From Acidobacteriota bacterium (lineage in GTDB: Bacteria; Acidobacteriota; Vicinamibacteria; Marinacidobacterales; Marinacidobacteraceae), in NCBI GenBank assembly GCA_009835985.1, contig VXWI01000018.1:1-34830 (forward strand): 34,830 nt of DNA. The letters are read 5' to 3'. Both the position numbers and the translations under genes were made by a program. This document shows, piece after piece, positions 16,287 through 24,391 of the stretch. Position 1 is the stretch's first letter. Each line of letters begins with the position of its first letter. The notes below the pieces were generated by a model. That model made no database searches. It was not told the origin of the DNA and saw nothing but the letters and a program-made list of their open reading frames with translations.

Positions 16287-16471
16287 TAGCAGCCTGTGGA
16301 TAAAGTGACGTGAGCACCGAGAACGCCGAGGCGCCCGGCTGACAAGGCGCGTGAGGGAGGAATACCGAGTGTATTCCGACCGAAACGCAACGCAGAGCGC
16401 CTCGTAGAGGCGCGGTTCAGGCGGGATGCATCGGCGTTCGAATGCCGCGTGACTTTGTCCACAGGCTGCTA
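16287..16471 (-). mobile_element. MITE-like structured repeat, copy B (inverted relative to copy A)
   Basis: This element of 185 bp has 24-bp terminal inverted repeats (16287-16310 and 16448-16471, 22 of 24 matching), each beginning TAGCAGCCTGTGGA. Read on the minus strand it carries the same internal order as copy A: a 7-bp hairpin (16397-16403 with 16407-16413), a 7-bp hairpin (16359-16365 with 16371-16377), and the conserved 60-nt block (16333-16392). The terminal TA could be part of a TA target duplication, as in IS630/Tc1-type elements; this is inference. It lies in the divergent region between the BASS gene and the permease-prefix gene, whose Shine-Dalgarno starts 15 nt beyond its edge. 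Confidence 0.8.
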
Positions 16472-16501
16472 AACCCGCGTCGTTCGGAGGGGGCGCCAGA
16501 C

Positions 16502-17863
16502 ATGAACCGCGAGACCACCGGGCGAGACGAGCCGGCGCGCTTCGCCGCGTGGCGCTCCCATCGGCTTCGGAACGGCAGGAGGTCGAGAACCGACCTGGAC
16601 GAACTGGAGGAAGCGCTCTCCGGCGCATTCAGCTCGCTGCAGGAGGCCGGACTCGCCCCTGACGAAGCGTTCCTCGTGGCCCTGAGACGCGTCGGGGAAC
16701 GGGATCCTCCAACCCGCGAGTTCGCCCGGCAGCACGCCGATCGGATGCTGGAGCCGCCGGCCCAAAGCGAGACCGGCCGCTGGGGAGTCGGCGCCGAGAC
16801 CTGGGGCGCGCTGGGCCTGGCGGCGCTCGCCGCCGCCGCCGCCAAGGCGCTGCAGCTCTTCGGCCCTCCGCTCACGGAGGACGCCATCGCCTTCTACGCC
16901 CGGAACGGGACCGTTGTGGCGCTGGGATGCGTCGCCGGCTACTTCGCCTGGAAGCGCGGGCTGGTCACCTCCGGCCCGGTTCGAATCGCGGCGGCCCTCT
17001 TTGCCGCGGCGGTCCTGATCAACCTGTTCCCGTTCACGCCGGCAGGGGCCACCGAAGTGCTCACCACGCTTCATCTGCCGATCGCGCTGTGGCTGGCGGT
17101 CGGCATCGTCCATAGCGCGGGACGCTGGGGCGTCTCGGCGAACCGGATGGGCTTCGTCCGGTTTTCCGGCGAACTCTTCATCCACGGCGTCCTGATCGCG
17201 CTCGGCGGGCTGGTCCTCTCCGCCATCACGCTCACCCTGTTCGGGAGGATCGGCGTGGACACCGACCGGCTCTGGGGAGCCTGGGTGTTGCCCTGCGGAG
17301 CGGCCGGCGCCGTCGTGATCGCCTCCTGGCTCGCGGAAAGCAGGACTCGCGTTACCGGCAGCCTGGCGCCGCTCCTGGCCCGGATCTTCACTCCCCTCTT
17401 CGCCTTCGCGCTGCTCGCACTGCTCGTGACGATGGCGTGGACGGGCGCCGGACTTCGGATCGAGCGCGAGGTCCTCATCGTTCTCGACCTGCTCCTGGCC
17501 GTGGTCGTGGGTCTGGTTCTCTACGCCGTCTCGGCTCGCGAGCCGGACAAGGAGCCGGGCCCGTTCGACGCACTGCAGTTGTTTCTGGTCGCGCTCGCGC
17601 TGGTCGTGGACCTGCTGGCGCTGGGGGCCATCGGGGCCCGCATCGCCGAGTTCGGCTTCACCGCCAACCGGACGGCGGCGCTCGGCCTGAACCTGGTCCT
17701 GCTCGCCAACCTGGCCGGGTCGGCTTGGCTCTATCTGCGCTTTGTGCGCGGGCGGGGACCGTTCGCCGCGCTCGAACGCTGGCAAACCGGCTTCCTTCCG
17801 GCGTACGCCGCGTGGGCCGCGGTGGTCGCCGCCGCCTTTCCCCCGCTGTTCGGCTACCTCTAG
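16502..17863 (+). CDS. permease-prefix-domain membrane protein
   Basis: This is a 453-residue protein. ATG 16502 is preceded by GGAGGGGG at good spacing, and starting further upstream would read into repeat B. The soluble N-terminal segment (about 25-70, LDELEEALSGAFSSLQEAGLAPDEAFLVALRRVG) resembles the permease prefix domain often fused to ABC permeases and other membrane proteins. About ten hydrophobic segments follow, ending LPAYAAWAAVVAAAFPPLFGYL. No transport motif is recognisable, and the C-terminal part recalls DUF4153-type proteins only loosely. No partner ATPase is adjacent, so it is not clearly an ABC permease. It converges on the outer-membrane protein gene with a 21-nt gap. Confidence 0.78.
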   Translation: MNRETTGRDEPARFAAWRSHRLRNGRRSRTDLDELEEALSGAFSSLQEAGLAPDEAFLVALRRVGERDPPTREFARQHADRMLEPPAQSETGRWGVGAETWGALGLAALAAAAAKALQLFGPPLTEDAIAFYARNGTVVALGCVAGYFAWKRGLVTSGPVRIAAALFAAAVLINLFPFTPAGATEVLTTLHLPIALWLAVGIVHSAGRWGVSANRMGFVRFSGELFIHGVLIALGGLVLSAITLTLFGRIGVDTDRLWGAWVLPCGAAGAVVIASWLAESRTRVTGSLAPLLARIFTPLFAFALLALLVTMAWTGAGLRIEREVLIVLDLLLAVVVGLVLYAVSAREPDKEPGPFDALQLFLVALALVVDLLALGAIGARIAEFGFTANRTAALGLNLVLLANLAGSAWLYLRFVRGRGPFAALERWQTGFLPAYAAWAAVVAAAFPPLFGYL

Positions 17864-17884: not shown

Positions 17885-18835
17885 TCAGAATCGGAGCTTC
17901 AGGAAGACGCTGAGCGCCGTGTAGGCCACGCTCTCCTCGGTCCGGATGCGGAAGGTCACCGGCTCGCTGCCGTCGAGACGGAGCTGCGAGGCGTGGCTCC
18001 GGAGGCGCTCCCACTCGGTCTCGTCCTCGAACGGGTCCGAACGGACGTAGCGCGCCTGGAGCCCCAGCGAGGCGTTGTCGTTCACCTCCCAGTCCACGCC
18101 GGCGAGAGCCTGGAACGCCGTGAGGCGGTCGCTCAGTTCTCCCTGCTTGCTGGTGGTCGTTGCGGCGAGGTTCCTCCGGACCTCCCCCTCGTTCGGCAGC
18201 CCCGCCGCGGTGGCGATCTTCGCCGGGTCGGCGTTGCGCACCCACAGGTCTCCGTAGTCCAGCTCCGTCCAGGAGACTCCCACGCCCAACCCGGCGAAGG
18301 GCTTGAGCGCGCCGTCCACGGGCAGGTCGAAGACCAGGTTCAGGAAGACGTTGCGGGAGGAAACGCTGCCGATCCGGTCTTCGGCGCGCACGATCTCGCC
18401 CTCCAGCTTGCCGGCGGTGTCACCCGTCGCGCTCCCCACCGGGGAGGTCTGGTCGTATTCAGATTCCCGATAGAAGGTCTCCACCTCCATCCGGAACCAG
18501 TCCGAGACCCGGTGGCCGACCGCGAGGCCGGCCAGGGCCCCGTAGGCCGGATCGAAGGCGGTCTGCCAGCCCGCCGCCGAGCCCCGGTCCGGATCCGTGC
18601 AGCCGGAGAGTTCGGCGTAGCGCGGGTTGATGAACTCGTCGCAGCGGCTCGCCCGGTCGTTGCTCTTGCCCAGGAGCACCACCCCCGCCGCCCGGTTCGC
18701 CCCGAAGTCGCCGCGCAGGTAGATGCCGGAGCGCTCTTCTTCGGCGAGCGCGACCGGCGCGCCGGCGAACAGGAGCGCGGCCGCCAGTGGGGCGCCGATC
18801 TTCAGGCGCCGCGCGGGGGCGGAAGGGAATCTCAT
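17885..18835 (-). CDS. outer-membrane beta-barrel protein with signal peptide
   Basis: This 316-residue exported protein has a signal peptide of about 31 residues (MRFPSAPARRLKIGAPLAAALLFAGAPVALA). The mature part alternates polar and aromatic residues as in small beta-barrels: GIYLRGDFGANRAAG, WFRMEVETFYRES, LKPFAGLGVGVSWTELDYG, ALAGVDWEVNDNASLGLQARYVRSDPF. It ends in Phe (FLKLRF), the expected BAM-recognition residue. Two cysteines about 15 residues apart in the first large loop (SRCDEF and SGCTDP) could form a disulfide. Its ATG overlaps the stop of the MqnD-like gene as ATGA, so it is probably translationally coupled. The role is unknown; structural or small-solute porin roles are possible. 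Confidence 0.82.
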   Translation of the reverse strand: MRFPSAPARRLKIGAPLAAALLFAGAPVALAEEERSGIYLRGDFGANRAAGVVLLGKSNDRASRCDEFINPRYAELSGCTDPDRGSAAGWQTAFDPAYGALAGLAVGHRVSDWFRMEVETFYRESEYDQTSPVGSATGDTAGKLEGEIVRAEDRIGSVSSRNVFLNLVFDLPVDGALKPFAGLGVGVSWTELDYGDLWVRNADPAKIATAAGLPNEGEVRRNLAATTTSKQGELSDRLTAFQALAGVDWEVNDNASLGLQARYVRSDPFEDETEWERLRSHASQLRLDGSEPVTFRIRTEESVAYTALSVFLKLRF

Positions 18836-19671
18836 CGGATCAGCTCGAAATCGGGAGCTTCGGAAACCACCCCGGCGCGCTCGGCCATCCTGAAGAGCAC
18901 CCGGAGCGCCGCCTCCCCGGAGTCCCCCATGTCGCGGGTCAGAGCGGAGACGTACATCTTGACGAACTTCCGCCCCAGCTCGCGTTCGAGCCCGCGGCCG
19001 AATAGGAGCGCGTAGTCGAGCGCTTCGTCCTCGTTCGCGTAGGCCCAGTCGATGCTCGCCCGCATCGCCCGGTTCACCTCGATCGCCAGGTCGCGGCCGA
19101 GGTCCCGCCTCACCACGTCGAGTCCGAGCGGCAGGGGCAGCCCGTGCTCCTCCTCGAAACGGACCCCGAAGTCCGAGAGCAGGTGGAATCCGCGCGCCTC
19201 GTAGGTCAGTTGCCCTTCGTGGATGACGACGCCCGCTTCGGCCCGGCCTTCATCGACCGTTTCGAAGATGCGGTCGAAGGGAACGACCACCGGCTCGAAC
19301 TCGCCGATGTAACAGCGGGCCAGCAGCGCCGCCGTGGTCCGCGGACCGGGAATCGCCACCCGGCGCCCTTCCAGGTCCTCGAGCCTTCCGGCCTTCCGGC
19401 TCACCACCACCGGGCCGTATCCCTCCCCCATGCTGGCTCCGGTCGCCATGATCCAGTAGCGGTCCGCGACCGACAGGTAGGCGTGGGCCGAGATCGCGGT
19501 GATCGGAAGTTCCCCGGCGAGGGCGCGGTCGTTCAGGCTCTCGATGTCCTCCAGCACGTGCTCCACCTGGTAGTCGCGGATGCGCACCGCGCCCTTCGCG
19601 AGGGCGCAGAACATGAAAGCGTCGTCGGGGTCGGGGCTGTGCCCGACCCGCAGGATGGGAGGAGGCGTCAC
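18832..19671 (-). CDS. MqnD-like protein (1,4-dihydroxy-6-naphthoate synthase family)
   Basis: This is a periplasmic-binding-protein-fold enzyme of the MqnA/MqnD family; MqnD acts late in the futalosine route to menaquinone. At 279 residues it has the family's length and no signal peptide, so it is cytoplasmic. Signature regions are LRVGHSPDPDDAFMFCALA (canonical MqnD has a SPCPNDTFIF-type sequence), VEHVLEDIESLNDRAL, ITAISAHAYLSVADRYWIMATGASMGEGYGPVVV, and GVVIHEGQLTYEARGF. The changed substrate-loop residues suggest the alternative branch annotated in some lineages. The start is GTG, overlapping the udk stop as GTGA. No other mqn genes are in the window. Confidence 0.82.
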   Translation of the reverse strand: MTPPPILRVGHSPDPDDAFMFCALAKGAVRIRDYQVEHVLEDIESLNDRALAGELPITAISAHAYLSVADRYWIMATGASMGEGYGPVVVSRKAGRLEDLEGRRVAIPGPRTTAALLARCYIGEFEPVVVPFDRIFETVDEGRAEAGVVIHEGQLTYEARGFHLLSDFGVRFEEEHGLPLPLGLDVVRRDLGRDLAIEVNRAMRASIDWAYANEDEALDYALLFGRGLERELGRKFVKMYVSALTRDMGDSGEAALRVLFRMAERAGVVSEAPDFELIR

Positions 19672-20330
19672 GGATTCGTTCCTTTCGCTTGGAATGCGGG
19701 CGGAGGAGCGGAAGTATCCCCTGTCACGCGAGCCGTGGCCCGGTCCACGCCTTCGTCGCCCCAGTCCACCGGGAAAACGAGGTCGGCGGCCCGGGCCGCA
19801 CCTGCCAGGTAGCGCCGCTGTGCCGGGATCACCATGTTCTCGAACCGTTCCCGGACCTCGGCCGGCGTATAGGCGCGCTCCGCGCCGTCCCGCCTGATAC
19901 GCCTGCGGAGGAGCACATCGAGATCGCCCTCGAGGAGGATGCGGAGATTCGCGGCCTCCCGGACCCGAGCATCCCAGAGGGCGAAGACCCCCTCCGCAAC
20001 CACCAGCTTTGTGGGGCCGAGGGAGCCGGCCACCCGGCGCGCGCCCGTCGCGAAGTCGTAGTCCAGATCGGGGACGGATCCACCGGCGCGCAGCGCCTCG
20101 AGGTGTTCGGCGAACAGGTCCAGGTCATAGGACTCCGGCTCGTCGTAGTTGACGTCCGTGCGCTCGGTGCGGGACAGGTGCGAGGTGTCCCGGTAGTAGT
20201 CGTCCTGCGAGAGCACGACCGCCTGCCGGGCGGGAAACCGCGCCGCCAGAGCCCGGGCGAAACGGGTCTTCCCGGTGCACGTCCACCCGGCGACGGCCAC
20301 CACGCGGACGCTGTGGGGCGCAGCGATCAG
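19668..20330 (-). CDS. udk: uridine kinase-like P-loop kinase
   Basis: This is a nucleoside kinase of the uridine kinase/phosphoribulokinase family, expected to phosphorylate uridine and/or cytidine in pyrimidine salvage. Motifs: Walker A in VAVAGWTCTGKTRFA, the substrate motif LSQDDYYRDTSHLSRTERTDVNYDEPESYD, VVAEGVFALWD, RRRIRRDGAERAYTP, and a closing aliphatic strand (ADLVFPVDWG). No ATG or TTG fits. CTG at 20330 overlaps the gatB stop as CTGA and has GGGAG upstream, giving 220 residues. GTG at 20303 (211 residues) is the conventional alternative, but it would leave only five residues before the P-loop glycine and has no ribosome binding site. Function is more secure than the start. Confidence 0.8.
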   Translation of the reverse strand: MIAAPHSVRVVAVAGWTCTGKTRFARALAARFPARQAVVLSQDDYYRDTSHLSRTERTDVNYDEPESYDLDLFAEHLEALRAGGSVPDLDYDFATGARRVAGSLGPTKLVVAEGVFALWDARVREAANLRILLEGDLDVLLRRRIRRDGAERAYTPAEVRERFENMVIPAQRRYLAGAARAADLVFPVDWGDEGVDRATARVTGDTSAPPPAFQAKGTNP

Positions 20331-21817
20331 GACTCTCCCGAGCCTCGCTCGAGCGCTCGTTCGAGCGCCGCCCGGGCCTCGCGGGCATCCGCTTTCCCGC
20401 GGAGTTCGCGCATCAACTGCCCTACGAAGAAGCCGATCACCTTCTTCTTGCCCGCGCGGTAGGCGTCCCGGTCCTCGGGGTGTTCGGCGACGAGCCGGGC
20501 GGCGGTCTCGTCCAGGCGGGACCCACCCGCCAGGTCGGCGAATCCGAGTTCCGCCATGAGTTCGCGGGCGGTGCGTCCGGTGTCGCACATCGCCTGGAAG
20601 ACCTCGCGCGCGGCGTTCCGCGGCAACTCCTTCGCGGCGAGGAGATGCACCAGCTCGCCGAGCCGCTCCGGAGGCGCCGCGAACCGTCCGTCCAGCTTTT
20701 CCCGGGAAACCACTTCGGTGGTGATCCAGCCGGCGGCCACTGCCGCGGCCTCGACGACCGGAGAACCGGCGCCCGTCGCCGCGGCCACGGTCCCCTCGTA
20801 GTAGTCCGCCAGGTCCCGGCGCGCGGCGATCCGCCCGGCCTGGTCCGAGGCGATGCCGTGCTCGCTCCGGTAACGGGCGGCGCGAGCCCGCGGGAATTCG
20901 GGCAGCGCGCTGCGCGCCGCTTCGAGCAACCCTTCGGGGAGCCGGAGCGGGGGGAGGTCGGGATCGGGGAAGTAGCGGTAGTCCTCGGCCTCCTCCTTGC
21001 TGCGCATGGGCTCGGTCACTCCGCGCGCCTCGTCGTAGAGACGCGTCTCCTGGACGACCTTTCGTCCGCCAGCCAGGGCCTCGCGCTGGCGCTGCTCCTC
21101 ATACTCGAGCGCCCGCTGGAGGAACCGGAACGAGTTCAGGTTCTTGAGCTCCACCTTGACCCCGTAGTCGACGTCGCCTCGCCGCCGGACCGAGACGTTG
21201 CCGTCCATGCGCAGGTTGCCCTTCTCCATGTCCGCATCGGACACCCTGCAATAGACGATCCGGCTCTTGAGTTCCCGGGCGTAGGCGACCGCCTCGGCGG
21301 CCGAACGCATGTCCGGGTCGCTCACGATCTCGATGAGCGGCACGCCGGCGCGGTTGAAGTCCACTCCGCTCCGCTTGTCCGACCCCGGGAAGCCGTCGTG
21401 AACCAGCTTTCCGGCGTCCTCCTCGATCTGGATCCGGTTGATCCCGACGTTGCGATCGACCGGCTCCCCGTCCCGCTCCTCCTCGAGCCGGATGTGGACG
21501 GACCCCGCCTCCGCCAGCGGAAACTCGTACTGGGTGATCTGGTACCCCTTGGGGAGATCGGGATAGAAGTAGTGCTTCCGCTCGAACACCGACTCTTCGT
21601 TGATCTCGCAGTCGAGGGCGAGCCCGGCGCGCACCGCGAGTTCCACCGCTCTCCGGTTGGGCACCGGGAGCGCTCCGGGGAGGCCGTAGCACACCGCACA
21701 CAGGTGCGTGTTCGGGGGTGAGCCGAACTTGTTCGGGCAGCCGCAGAAGAGCTTCGTCCGGGTATCGAGCTGGACGTGCACCTCCAGCCCGATGACGGTC
21801 TCGAAAGGGTCGGTCAC
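20327..21817 (-). CDS. gatB: Asp-tRNA(Asn)/Glu-tRNA(Gln) amidotransferase subunit B
   Basis: GatB is the tRNA-binding kinase subunit of GatCAB, which converts mischarged Glu-tRNA(Gln) or Asp-tRNA(Asn) to the amidated form. At 496 residues it is of usual length. Features: IGLEVHVQLDTRTKLFCGC; a four-cysteine zinc site (C25, C27, C40, C43); KHYFYPDLPKGYQITQYEFPLAEAG; GINRIQIEEDAGKLVHD; DFNRAGVPLIEIVSDPDMRS; MEKGNLRMDGNVSVR; and a C-terminal YqeY-like tail with GKKKVIGFFVGQLMRELRGKAD. The start is GTG, 18 nt after the acyl-CoA synthetase stop. gatA and gatC are not in the window, so the subunits are encoded at separate loci. Confidence 0.96.
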   Translation of the reverse strand: MTDPFETVIGLEVHVQLDTRTKLFCGCPNKFGSPPNTHLCAVCYGLPGALPVPNRRAVELAVRAGLALDCEINEESVFERKHYFYPDLPKGYQITQYEFPLAEAGSVHIRLEEERDGEPVDRNVGINRIQIEEDAGKLVHDGFPGSDKRSGVDFNRAGVPLIEIVSDPDMRSAAEAVAYARELKSRIVYCRVSDADMEKGNLRMDGNVSVRRRGDVDYGVKVELKNLNSFRFLQRALEYEEQRQREALAGGRKVVQETRLYDEARGVTEPMRSKEEAEDYRYFPDPDLPPLRLPEGLLEAARSALPEFPRARAARYRSEHGIASDQAGRIAARRDLADYYEGTVAAATGAGSPVVEAAAVAAGWITTEVVSREKLDGRFAAPPERLGELVHLLAAKELPRNAAREVFQAMCDTGRTARELMAELGFADLAGGSRLDETAARLVAEHPEDRDAYRAGKKKVIGFFVGQLMRELRGKADAREARAALERALERGSGES

Positions 21818-21835: not shown

Positions 21836-23620
21836 TCAGGAATACAGGGACTCGATCAGGTCGGCATACCGCTCCGCCACCACCCGGCGCTTCACCTTCA
21901 TGGTGGGCGTCAGCTCCCCGCTCTCGATGGTGAAGGACGCCGTCACCACGGCGATCTTCTTGACCTGCTCGAAGGACGCGAGTCCCTCGCTCAGCCGGCC
22001 GATCTCGGTCATCAGATGCCCCTGGACGCGTTCGTCGGCGGCCATCGCCTCGGGGCTGTCGGCCGATATTCCTTCTCCCTCGCACCACCTCGCGAGCTGC
22101 TCGAAGTCCGGCGCGACCAGCGCCGAAAGGTAGGGCTTGCCGTCCCCGACCATCACCAGTTCGGCGATGTAGACGCTCGACTTGAGGCTTCCCTCGATCG
22201 GTTGCGGCGCGACGTTCTTGCCTCCGGCGGTGACGAGCAGGTCCTTCTTCCGATCCGTGATCCGCAGGAAGCCGTCCTCGTCGAAGGCCCCGACGTCGCC
22301 GGTGTGGAACCAGCCGTCCACGATCGCCTCGTTGGTGGCCGCCTCGTTGCCGAAGTACCCCTTCATCACGTTGTGGCCGCGGCAGAGGATCTCCCCGTCG
22401 TCGGCGATCTTCACGTCCACGCCGCGAATGGGGGTCCCCACCGTTCCGAACCGGAAGCGCTCCCGGCAGTTCACGGTGATGACCGGCGAGGTCTCCGTCA
22501 GTCCGTAGCCCTCGATCACGACCCAGCCCGCCGCCAGGAAGAACTCGGCGACGTCGCGGGGAAGCGCCGCCCCGCCGGAGACGAAGAGCTCCATCCGCCC
22601 ACCCATCCGGGCGTGGAGCTTGCTGAACACCAGCTTCGTCGCCAGGCCGTACTTGAACTTCAGGCCCGCCGGCACCGCGGCGCCGTCCTGGCGGTGCTTG
22701 CCCACGGCGTACCCGACCGAGAACGCCCAGTTGAAGATCTTCTGCTTCAGGGAGCTGCCGGCGGCCGCCGACTCGAGGACCTTGTCCCGCATCTTCTCGT
22801 AAAAGCGCGGCACGCACGCCATCACCGTGGGGTGGACCTCCCCGATGTTCTGGACCAGGGTGTCCATGCTCTCGGCGATCGCGATCGTGACCCCGGCGTG
22901 CGGATACAGGTAGTGCGCCACCATGCGCGCGAACACGTGGCTGTACGGCAGCACGGAGATCGCGCGATCCTCCGGAGTCAGCGTCAGCGCCTCGTGCGAG
23001 GCGAGGGTGTTCTGAACCAGGTTCGCCTGGGTGAGCATCACCCCCTTCGGATTGCCGGTGGTTCCGGAGGTGTAGATGATGGTGGCGACGTCGTCACCCG
23101 AAACCGCCGCCGCGAGGCGCTCGGCCCCGCCGGAATCCACCGCGCGCGAACTCTTGCCGGCGTCGGTCACCCTCGACCACGACTGACCCCCCGAACCGTC
23201 CACCGGCGCGTCGAGCGTGAAGACCATCTCGACGGCGGGCAGCGAGTCGCGGACTGCCGCGATCTTGGCCTGCTGCTCCGCTGAGGAGGCGATCACCACC
23301 CGCGCACCCGAGTCCTGGATGATGTAGGCGGCCTGCTGCGCCGTGAGGGTGGGATAGATCGGGACCGTCACGGCGCCCAGGATCTGAAGTCCCGCTTCGA
23401 TGGTGAACCACTCCAGGCGGTTCTCCGAAAGGAGCACCACCCGGTCTCCCTTCTGCACTCCGCGCAGCGACAGCCCTACCGCCGCGTCCCGCGCGGCGTC
23501 GAGCCACCCCGCGGACGAAAGACTCTTCCACTCGCCGCCCTCCTTGTGGAGGATGGCGTCGTCCTTGTTGTGCCGCTCGCAGGCGGCGGCGAAAAGCTGG
23601 TTGAGGGTCTGCGCTTCCAT
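21836..23620 (-). CDS. long-chain acyl-CoA synthetase (AMP-binding)
   Basis: This is an ATP-dependent fatty-acid:CoA ligase of the adenylate-forming family, 594 residues. The start at ATG 23620 has GGAGGTGT six bases upstream; the frame extends 98 codons further into REP-like hairpins and is not credible there. Motifs: IIYTSGTTGNPKGVML (P-loop, about 181-196), EGYGLTETSPVI (about 370-381), a DGWFHTGDVGAFDEDGFL segment and DRKKDLLVTAGGKNVAPQPIE. It resembles the bacterial and plant long-chain synthetases of the FadD15/FAA type. It heads the five-gene minus-strand run and is divergent from the LysE gene. TAAGAT at 23641-23646 (minus strand) may be its -10. Confidence 0.93.
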   Translation of the reverse strand: MEAQTLNQLFAAACERHNKDDAILHKEGGEWKSLSSAGWLDAARDAAVGLSLRGVQKGDRVVLLSENRLEWFTIEAGLQILGAVTVPIYPTLTAQQAAYIIQDSGARVVIASSAEQQAKIAAVRDSLPAVEMVFTLDAPVDGSGGQSWSRVTDAGKSSRAVDSGGAERLAAAVSGDDVATIIYTSGTTGNPKGVMLTQANLVQNTLASHEALTLTPEDRAISVLPYSHVFARMVAHYLYPHAGVTIAIAESMDTLVQNIGEVHPTVMACVPRFYEKMRDKVLESAAAGSSLKQKIFNWAFSVGYAVGKHRQDGAAVPAGLKFKYGLATKLVFSKLHARMGGRMELFVSGGAALPRDVAEFFLAAGWVVIEGYGLTETSPVITVNCRERFRFGTVGTPIRGVDVKIADDGEILCRGHNVMKGYFGNEAATNEAIVDGWFHTGDVGAFDEDGFLRITDRKKDLLVTAGGKNVAPQPIEGSLKSSVYIAELVMVGDGKPYLSALVAPDFEQLARWCEGEGISADSPEAMAADERVQGHLMTEIGRLSEGLASFEQVKKIAVVTASFTIESGELTPTMKVKRRVVAERYADLIESLYS

Positions 23621-23640
23621 GGGAACACCTCCGGCCGGTG

Positions 23641-23646
23641 ATCTTA
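23641..23646 (-). promoter_or_regulatory. candidate -10 element of the acyl-CoA synthetase operon
   Basis: TAAGAT on the minus strand lies 20 nt before ATG 23620, leaving room for the GGAGGTGT ribosome binding site between them. No -35 is evident. Confidence 0.35.
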
Positions 23647-23678
23647 CGCAAGTGGCGTCGAAGCACCGGCCTCGGAGC

Positions 23679-23717
23679 GCCAGCCTCCGGCTGGCATCGC
23701 GGCCCGGGAGGGCCGCG
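23679..23717. repeat. pair of REP-like hairpins in a divergent intergenic region
   Basis: Two perfect hairpins stand two bases apart: 23679-23685 with 23689-23695 (7 bp, TCC loop) and 23698-23705 with 23710-23717 (8 bp, GGGA loop). GGAGCGCC precedes the first. The same octamer, in reverse complement, is joined to the hairpin at 8043-8058 (GCCGGCTGAAGCCGGC), suggesting one REP-like family. They lie between divergent genes and so cannot be conventional terminators for either. Confidence 0.65.
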
Positions 23718-23761
23718 AAACCCGCATTTACGTTGCCCGGGCCCGAGCGGCACTCCGGGGG

Positions 23762-23767
23762 TAGATT
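23762..23767 (+). promoter_or_regulatory. candidate -10 element of the LysE gene
   Basis: TAGATT followed by CCCC lies 24 nt before ATG 23792. It fits the TA-n-n-n-T pattern seen upstream of several genes here. A CTCCC run rather than a Shine-Dalgarno precedes the start. Confidence 0.3.
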
Positions 23768-23791
23768 CCCCGGCGTCCCTCCCATCCCCCC

Positions 23792-24391
23792 ATGCTCGAC
23801 CTCATCCTCCCCGTCGCGCTCTTCGCGTTCTCCATGTCGATCACGCCCGGGCCCAATAACGTCATGGTCACCGCCTCGGGGGCGAACTTCGGATACCGGC
23901 GGACGATCCCGCACCTCCTGGGCATCGGCCTCGGGTATCCGGCGATGGTGGCCGGGGTCGGATTCGGCCTAGGAGGCGTCTTCGAGGCCGTCCCTGCGGT
24001 GCATGTCGTCCTCAAGTACCTGGGCTCCGGCGCCATCCTCTGGATGGCCTGGAGGATCGCCACGGCCAGCGAGATCGGGCAGACGGCCCAACGGTCCGGA
24101 CGCCCGTTCACCTTCCTGCAGGCCGCCGCCTTCCAGTGGGTGAACCCCAAGGGGTGGGTCGTCGCCATCGGGGCGATCAGCGCCTTCACGACCGTCGAGG
24201 GAGACCTCTTTCTCGAAGTGGGTGCGATCACCTTGAGCTTCGTCTCGGTGAACTACGCCTGCGCTTCGGTCTGGACTCTCTTCGGCGTCGGGATCGGGCG
24301 GCTCCTGAAGCGCGGCAACCGGCTCCGGATCTTCAACGTCACGATGGGTCTCCTGCTCGTCGCCGCCATCGTGCCGTTTTTCGTGGACTGA
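23792..24391 (+). CDS. LysE/RhtB-family amino-acid exporter
   Basis: This is an inner-membrane export protein of 199 residues with six expected hydrophobic segments. The N-terminal signature SITPGPNNVMVTASGANFGYRRTIPHLLGIGLGY is diagnostic for the LysE/RhtB superfamily. A further conserved block is FLQAAAFQWVNPKGWVVAIGAISAF, where the NPK motif is typical of the RhtB branch. Likely substrates are homoserine, threonine or another neutral amino acid, but this cannot be decided from sequence. It is divergent from the acyl-CoA synthetase and 113 nt ahead of accD, which probably has its own promoter. Confidence 0.92.
   Translation: MLDLILPVALFAFSMSITPGPNNVMVTASGANFGYRRTIPHLLGIGLGYPAMVAGVGFGLGGVFEAVPAVHVVLKYLGSGAILWMAWRIATASEIGQTAQRSGRPFTFLQAAAFQWVNPKGWVVAIGAISAFTTVEGDLFLEVGAITLSFVSVNYACASVWTLFGVGIGRLLKRGNRLRIFNVTMGLLLVAAIVPFFVD

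Follow-up and report, generated by a model that had tools for sequence, protein, structure and literature searches.

Gene order and junctions at the gatB locus

The window analyzed here, 34,830 nucleotides in length, is one whole contig (C99) of the 3.34-Mb draft genome (124 contigs) of an uncultured Acidobacteriota bacterium, labeled G000 below. On its minus strand, an acyl-CoA synthetase gene is followed by gatB, a P-loop kinase gene, an mqnD-like gene and an outer-membrane beta-barrel gene (omp), in that order. The features of this region are, from upstream to downstream:

21836..23914, minus strand: acyl-CoA synthetase gene (Pfam AMP-binding, 2.2e-79), 18 nt 5' of gatB and without overlap
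20327..21817, minus strand: gatB, the upstream partner (Pfam GatB_N, 4.3e-115; NCBIfam gatB equivalogs above cut-off)
20335..20338, minus strand: GGAG, Shine-Dalgarno-like, part of GGGAG, 4 nt 5' of the CTG
20327..20330, minus strand: CTGA, gatB stop overlapped by the proposed CTG start of the kinase (from sequence; also in G003, G005, G006, G007 and G009)
19668..20330, minus strand: gene of a 220-aa (counted from the CTG) P-loop kinase, uridine kinase/phosphoribulokinase family (Pfam PRK, 4.7e-26)
20298..20303, minus strand: GTG GTG tandem, rival kinase starts at residues 10 and 11 (from sequence)
19668..19671, minus strand: GTGA overlap of the kinase gene (stop TGA 19670-19668) and the mqnD-like gene (GTG 19671)
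18832..19671, minus strand: mqnD-like gene, menaquinone biosynthesis, MqnA/MqnD-type (Pfam VitK2_biosynth, 1.9e-67; product with no NCBIfam match)
18832..18835, minus strand: ATGA overlap holding the mqnD stop and the omp start (ATG 18835)
17885..18835, minus strand: omp, outer-membrane beta-barrel gene (Pfam OMP_b-brl, 2.2e-09)

The gatB gene starts at a GTG (21817) and ends in the codons GGA GAG TCC TGA, the stop lying at 20329-20327. In the kinase frame, a CTG at 20330-20328 shares bases with this TGA, producing the CTGA. The sequence bore out all three junctions named in a preliminary description of this DNA (CTGA for gatB/kinase, GTGA for kinase/mqnD and ATGA for mqnD/omp), as well as the GGGAG upstream of the CTG. 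The same description had found no suitable ATG or TTG for the kinase, and indeed the open frame upstream of the CTG in G000 contains no in-frame ATG or TTG. The in-frame GTGs are the tandem at 20303 and 20300 and one located 86 codons up, inside gatB.

The name udk, previously given to the kinase gene, held at the superfamily level, as the product scored 92.3 bits against Pfam PRK (gathering cut-off 22), but it fell below both NCBIfam uridine-kinase cut-offs (144.3 versus 180 for PRK05480.1 and 130.7 versus 220.3 for TIGR00235). Solved structures related to the kinase include uridine kinases (best 3w8r, 8e-36).

Overlaps of stop and start codons were frequent in a 577-kb sample of G000, in which 78 of 320 same-strand gene pairs were joined by ATGA, GTGA or TTGA. 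Runs of at least three adjacent overlaps accounted for 2 of 62 runs when CTGA was not counted and for 6 of 67 when it was. The overlap chain is itself ordinary, and the proposed CTG start is its sole unusual element.

The preliminary description had gone further in proposing that strict translational coupling fixes the ratio of the four products, and this was not supported by comparison of the relatives. The kinase/mqnD overlap was present in four of the six genomes of the genus and absent in G003 and G006, in which the kinase ends eight codons sooner, and the mqnD/omp ATGA was present in three and lost from three. The omp homologue of G004 lies approximately 2.9 kb away from mqnD, and in G008 mqnD is on the opposite strand. 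In addition, mqnD retains an AGGA 8 nt before its own GTG, within AAAGGAAC, in all six genomes of the genus, so that it can probably start independently. A CTGA at the mqnD/omp junction of G005 and G007 was considered as a start and dropped, there being an in-frame ATG 29 nt past the stop.

The start codon of the kinase

The gatB/kinase locus was found in eight genomes, G001 and G002 having no match for gatB or the kinase. The conservation of the CTGA junction among relatives, proposed earlier as a check, was confirmed in five of the six genomes of the genus and in G009, which belongs to another genus. In all five genus genomes with the CTGA, the gatB TGA is overlapped by CTG ATC, and GGAGAG is found shortly 5' of it. 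The G009 kinase has no ATG, GTG or TTG in the 127 open codons upstream of its CTG, and its nearest downstream canonical codon is 34 codons on, beyond the P-loop. Unless the assembly is wrong, the G009 kinase therefore could not be made from a canonical start. The remaining two genomes differ: G004 reads TGA AGC CTG ATC, where an in-frame TGA precedes the CTG by two codons and a GTG follows it at a distance of four codons, and G008 has no in-frame CTG at the junction and has a GTG. The kinases of G004 and G008 can use GTG.

Based on these comparisons, we consider CTG 20330 the probable start codon of the kinase, reached by termination-reinitiation at the end of gatB. In agreement with it, the hexamer coding signal, obtained with a scorer that we built ourselves, reaches 20333. 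Several other observations were of limited help. A CTGA alone carries little weight because C is frequent before TGA (135 of 285 TGA stops in the 577-kb sample). The junction contains 17 nt that are invariant in five genomes of the genus, but 25 of 312 invariant runs in the region are at least that long, and we do not take this conservation as proof. Changes among the five genomes in the nine codons between the CTG and the GTG fall, by eye, mostly in codon positions 1 and 2; a stretch of nine codons is too short for coding constraint to be demonstrated.

The main alternative is a non-overlapping kinase start at GTG 20303 (or 20300), 23 nt downstream of the gatB stop; the CTGA would then simply reflect how often C precedes TGA. 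GTG 20303 is one of the regular start codons and is kept in five of the six genomes of the genus, the same five that have the CTGA. The predicted fold (mean pLDDT 85) places the first strand at residues 9-15, and a start at residue 10 would keep most of it; as the fold tolerates such a start, the predicted structure was not accepted as proof of the CTG. Against GTG 20303, no Shine-Dalgarno-like motif was found 5' of it, whereas GGAG lies 4 nt before the CTG. Moreover, it would leave five residues ahead of the P-loop glycine, and none of 70 relatives had its canonical starts, counted within 60 residues, confined to so short a distance. The commonest distance of the nearest ATG from this glycine was seven residues, and in the seven relatives in which it was two to five residues there were other starts too. 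A 20-nt gap nearly abolished reinitiation in tested pairs, according to the excerpted account in PMC10666635, so GTG 20303 would need independent initiation. Although this GTG exists as a canonical start in G000, G009 has none at the corresponding place. Overall, we regard a start at GTG 20303 as unlikely, and the earlier proposal of CTG 20330 is strengthened by G009 and by the recurrence of such junctions elsewhere, the GTG keeping a smaller share of the probability in G000.

We also considered translation of the kinase from further up, by a start inside gatB, by frameshifting or by readthrough from gatB. The kinase frame of G000 is open for 257 codons upstream and holds the GTG 86 codons up, which would allow this. 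However, what is added to the protein would come from out-of-frame reading of gatB, and a start inside gatB is excluded in G004 by the in-frame stop and in G009 by the lack of canonical codons across its open upstream frame. For G000 we judged such a start unlikely, and translation from further up by any of these routes appears very improbable.

CTGA junctions in other gene pairs

Initiation at a CTG that overlaps a preceding stop appears not to be restricted to the kinase. A gene for an FG-GAP-repeat protein lies behind an FMN-dehydrogenase gene (Pfam assignments on the G000 pair, and for FG-GAP also on G009), and the junction of the two is CTGA in eight of the nine genomes containing its 5' end (G000, G002, G003, G005, G006, G007, G008 and G009). 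G001, with a more distant relative only, was left out of this set. In the eight CTGA genomes there is no canonical codon within 44 codons upstream, the nearest being 187 codons away in six of them. Seven of the eight also lack any canonical codon ahead of a conserved QPRF-like segment, the exception being G005 with a TTG at codon 10. A signal-peptide-like stretch, recognized by eye, starts at the CTG. In the ninth genome, G004, the FG-GAP gene has a GTG and the FMN-dehydrogenase neighbor has been lost. The GTGA there was rejected as a matching overlap, as its TGA closes a frame of only 147 codons whose C-terminus is unlike FMN dehydrogenase.

At the 3' end of the FMN-dehydrogenase gene, the final four fourfold sites, including the base that makes the CTG, are invariant in all eight genomes, compared to 28 of 152 such sites overall (approximately 0.001 if the sites are independent, for a set chosen post hoc). 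Changes of the last CGC of this gene to CGA, CGG or CGT would be silent and would yield ATG, GTG or TTG, respectively.

The junction preceding a GerMN-domain gene (Pfam Germane) reads GTGA in seven genomes, G000 and G002-G007, whereas G009 has CTGA in that position. The upstream frame ended by this TGA is 480 codons or longer in each of the eight genomes and extends beyond the locus. In G009, a GGAG stands 7 nt ahead of the CTG, and the open frame upstream is free of canonical codons. By eye, the GerMN gene encodes a lipoprotein-like N-terminus. G009 also has a CTGA at a DCC1-like gene (24.1 bits for the first 60 residues, under the cut-off of 27.8), in which an in-frame stop lies three codons before the CTG and the first ATG is inside the CxxC motif. 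The evidence does not include weaker candidates in G006 (esterase-like, lipoprotein-like and membrane-protein-like genes), in which canonical codons occur 35-68 nt beyond the stop.

An automated count gave a borderline result. The genes were called with the same self-built hexamer scorer. Three kinds of pair were excluded: those scoring below 40, those whose start was estimated to lie over 60 nt away from the stop, and those joined by CTGATG, in which an ATG overlaps by 1 nt. A canonical start was lacking from -60 to +75 at 5 of 44 CTGA junctions; the corresponding figure for pairs in the other two frames was 9 of 230 (p = 0.055), a difference that supports CTG starts weakly and was not accepted as proof. 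By genome, the numbers were 0/9 in the sampled part of G000, 2/15 in G006, 3/20 in G009 and 0/11 in G014, the only outgroup in the count. The five comprised the kinase, GerMN and FG-GAP genes of G009 and, in G006, the FG-GAP gene and a gene with a later ATG (+86, start by eye) that proved false on inspection. The G000 FG-GAP pair came from a directed look-up and lies outside the sampled part. CTG starts are a minority even among CTGA junctions, and the case for them is built on single genes from a small number of related draft genomes. Together, the relatives suggest that this uncultured Acidobacteriota group sometimes starts genes at a CTG overlapping the preceding stop.

Proposed reinitiation at overlapping codons

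The gatB/kinase junction resembles the NTGA reinitiation pairs described in PMC6728339, PMC10666635 and PMC12548453, in which stop and start share bases and the upstream gene contains an SD-like motif. In the tested pairs of these accounts the downstream protein depends on translation of the upstream gene, and overlaps couple translation in the tests published in PMC6728339. The gatB/kinase pair differs in that N is C; the main texts do not contain the words CTGA (PMC6728339), CTG (PMC10666635) or CUG (PMC12548453).

By comparison with these systems, we propose that the ribosome, or its 30S subunit, would terminate gatB at the TGA, stay in place through the GGGAG near the 3' end of gatB and restart on the overlapping CUG, a termination-reinitiation of the NTGA kind with N = C. 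In this Acidobacteriota family, CTG would then occasionally serve, probably with low efficiency, as a fourth codon for restarting at overlaps. We infer initiation at the CUG, coupling, low yield and IF3 sensitivity from the sequences compared here.

Codons outside ATG, GTG and TTG, with low yield expected, are likewise found in two IF3-controlled genes discussed in sections of PMC5472188, infC (AUU or AUC) and Streptomyces sigR (GTC). The latter is also part of a translationally coupled pair, but as the upstream gene, whereas here the odd codon would be a downstream restart overlapping the stop. In the sigR-rsrA pair the non-canonical start unbalances the products, according to the same sections. 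By analogy, far less kinase than GatB should be made, contrary to a one-to-one ratio.

CUG starts have very rarely arisen in prokaryotes, the reconstruction reported in an excerpt of PMC5622118 deriving them from 2 of 61,358 ancestral AUG, 1 of 5,080 GUG and 1 of 2,468 UUG. In contrast to the rarity described there, in the lineage studied here CTG at a stop overlap appears to recur and, in one gene pair, to have been kept across three genera, and it is this that we consider new. Caution comes from the dnaA leader, where, as reported in part of PMC8443254, a CUG behind a Shine-Dalgarno sequence gives toeprints, yet is unused in vivo. For S. aureus, the portion of PMC13009471 available reports AUU and AUA starts and no CUG. 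Reinitiation at non-canonical codons in PMC4648390 was set aside as a parallel, the system studied there being a eukaryotic expression system, and PMC11445065 had no bearing on CTG.

More broadly, and with considerable doubt, we speculate that in this family CTG could be a true fourth start codon mainly at CTGA, restarting ribosomes being less choosy than those initiating afresh. At some junctions the weak codon might have been maintained by selection against silent changes to ATG, GTG or TTG, setting a low, upstream-dependent dose of the downstream protein. The testable question raised is whether reinitiating ribosomes escape the IF3 start-codon check of ordinary initiation.

Start prediction by gene finders generally accepts only ATG, GTG and TTG, as stated in a section of PMC5472188. 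Use of CTG at overlaps would mean that starts are misplaced and that some annotated proteins in this lineage are too short, with the annotated FG-GAP and GerMN proteins losing their signal-peptide-like ends.

Kinase gene and its neighborhood

window 19668-20330 (-), P-loop kinase gene, directly downstream of gatB
window 16442-17863 (+), 473-aa protein, convergent with the outer-membrane beta-barrel gene omp

The window kinase scored below both NCBIfam uridine-kinase cut-offs, and its Walker A motif reads GWTCTGKT; the corresponding motif of the kinase from G009, a genome of another genus, is GASCTGKT. Searches of two genus genomes, G001 and G002, for gatB and the kinase returned no match to either gene, even though the completeness of G002 is given as 91%; these absences probably represent assembly gaps. 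The 473-aa protein was hydrophobic, as judged by eye, and had no match in a Pfam search.

Another CTGA pair in the window's genome

L276:2496-4492, FMN-dehydrogenase/FG-GAP gene pair, junction CTGA

The upstream partner, the FMN-dehydrogenase gene, terminates TCG GTG CTC CGC CGC TGA.

Candidate start codons of infC

At the infC loci of the window's genome and G003-G009 (L188-L195), no canonical start was found 3' of the in-frame stop. For E. coli, one paper gives ATT as the infC start, and for Streptomyces it gives ATC (PMC5472188). The candidate start was ATC, preceded by AGGTGAT, in the window's genome, G003-G007 and G008, and CTG or ATA in G009.
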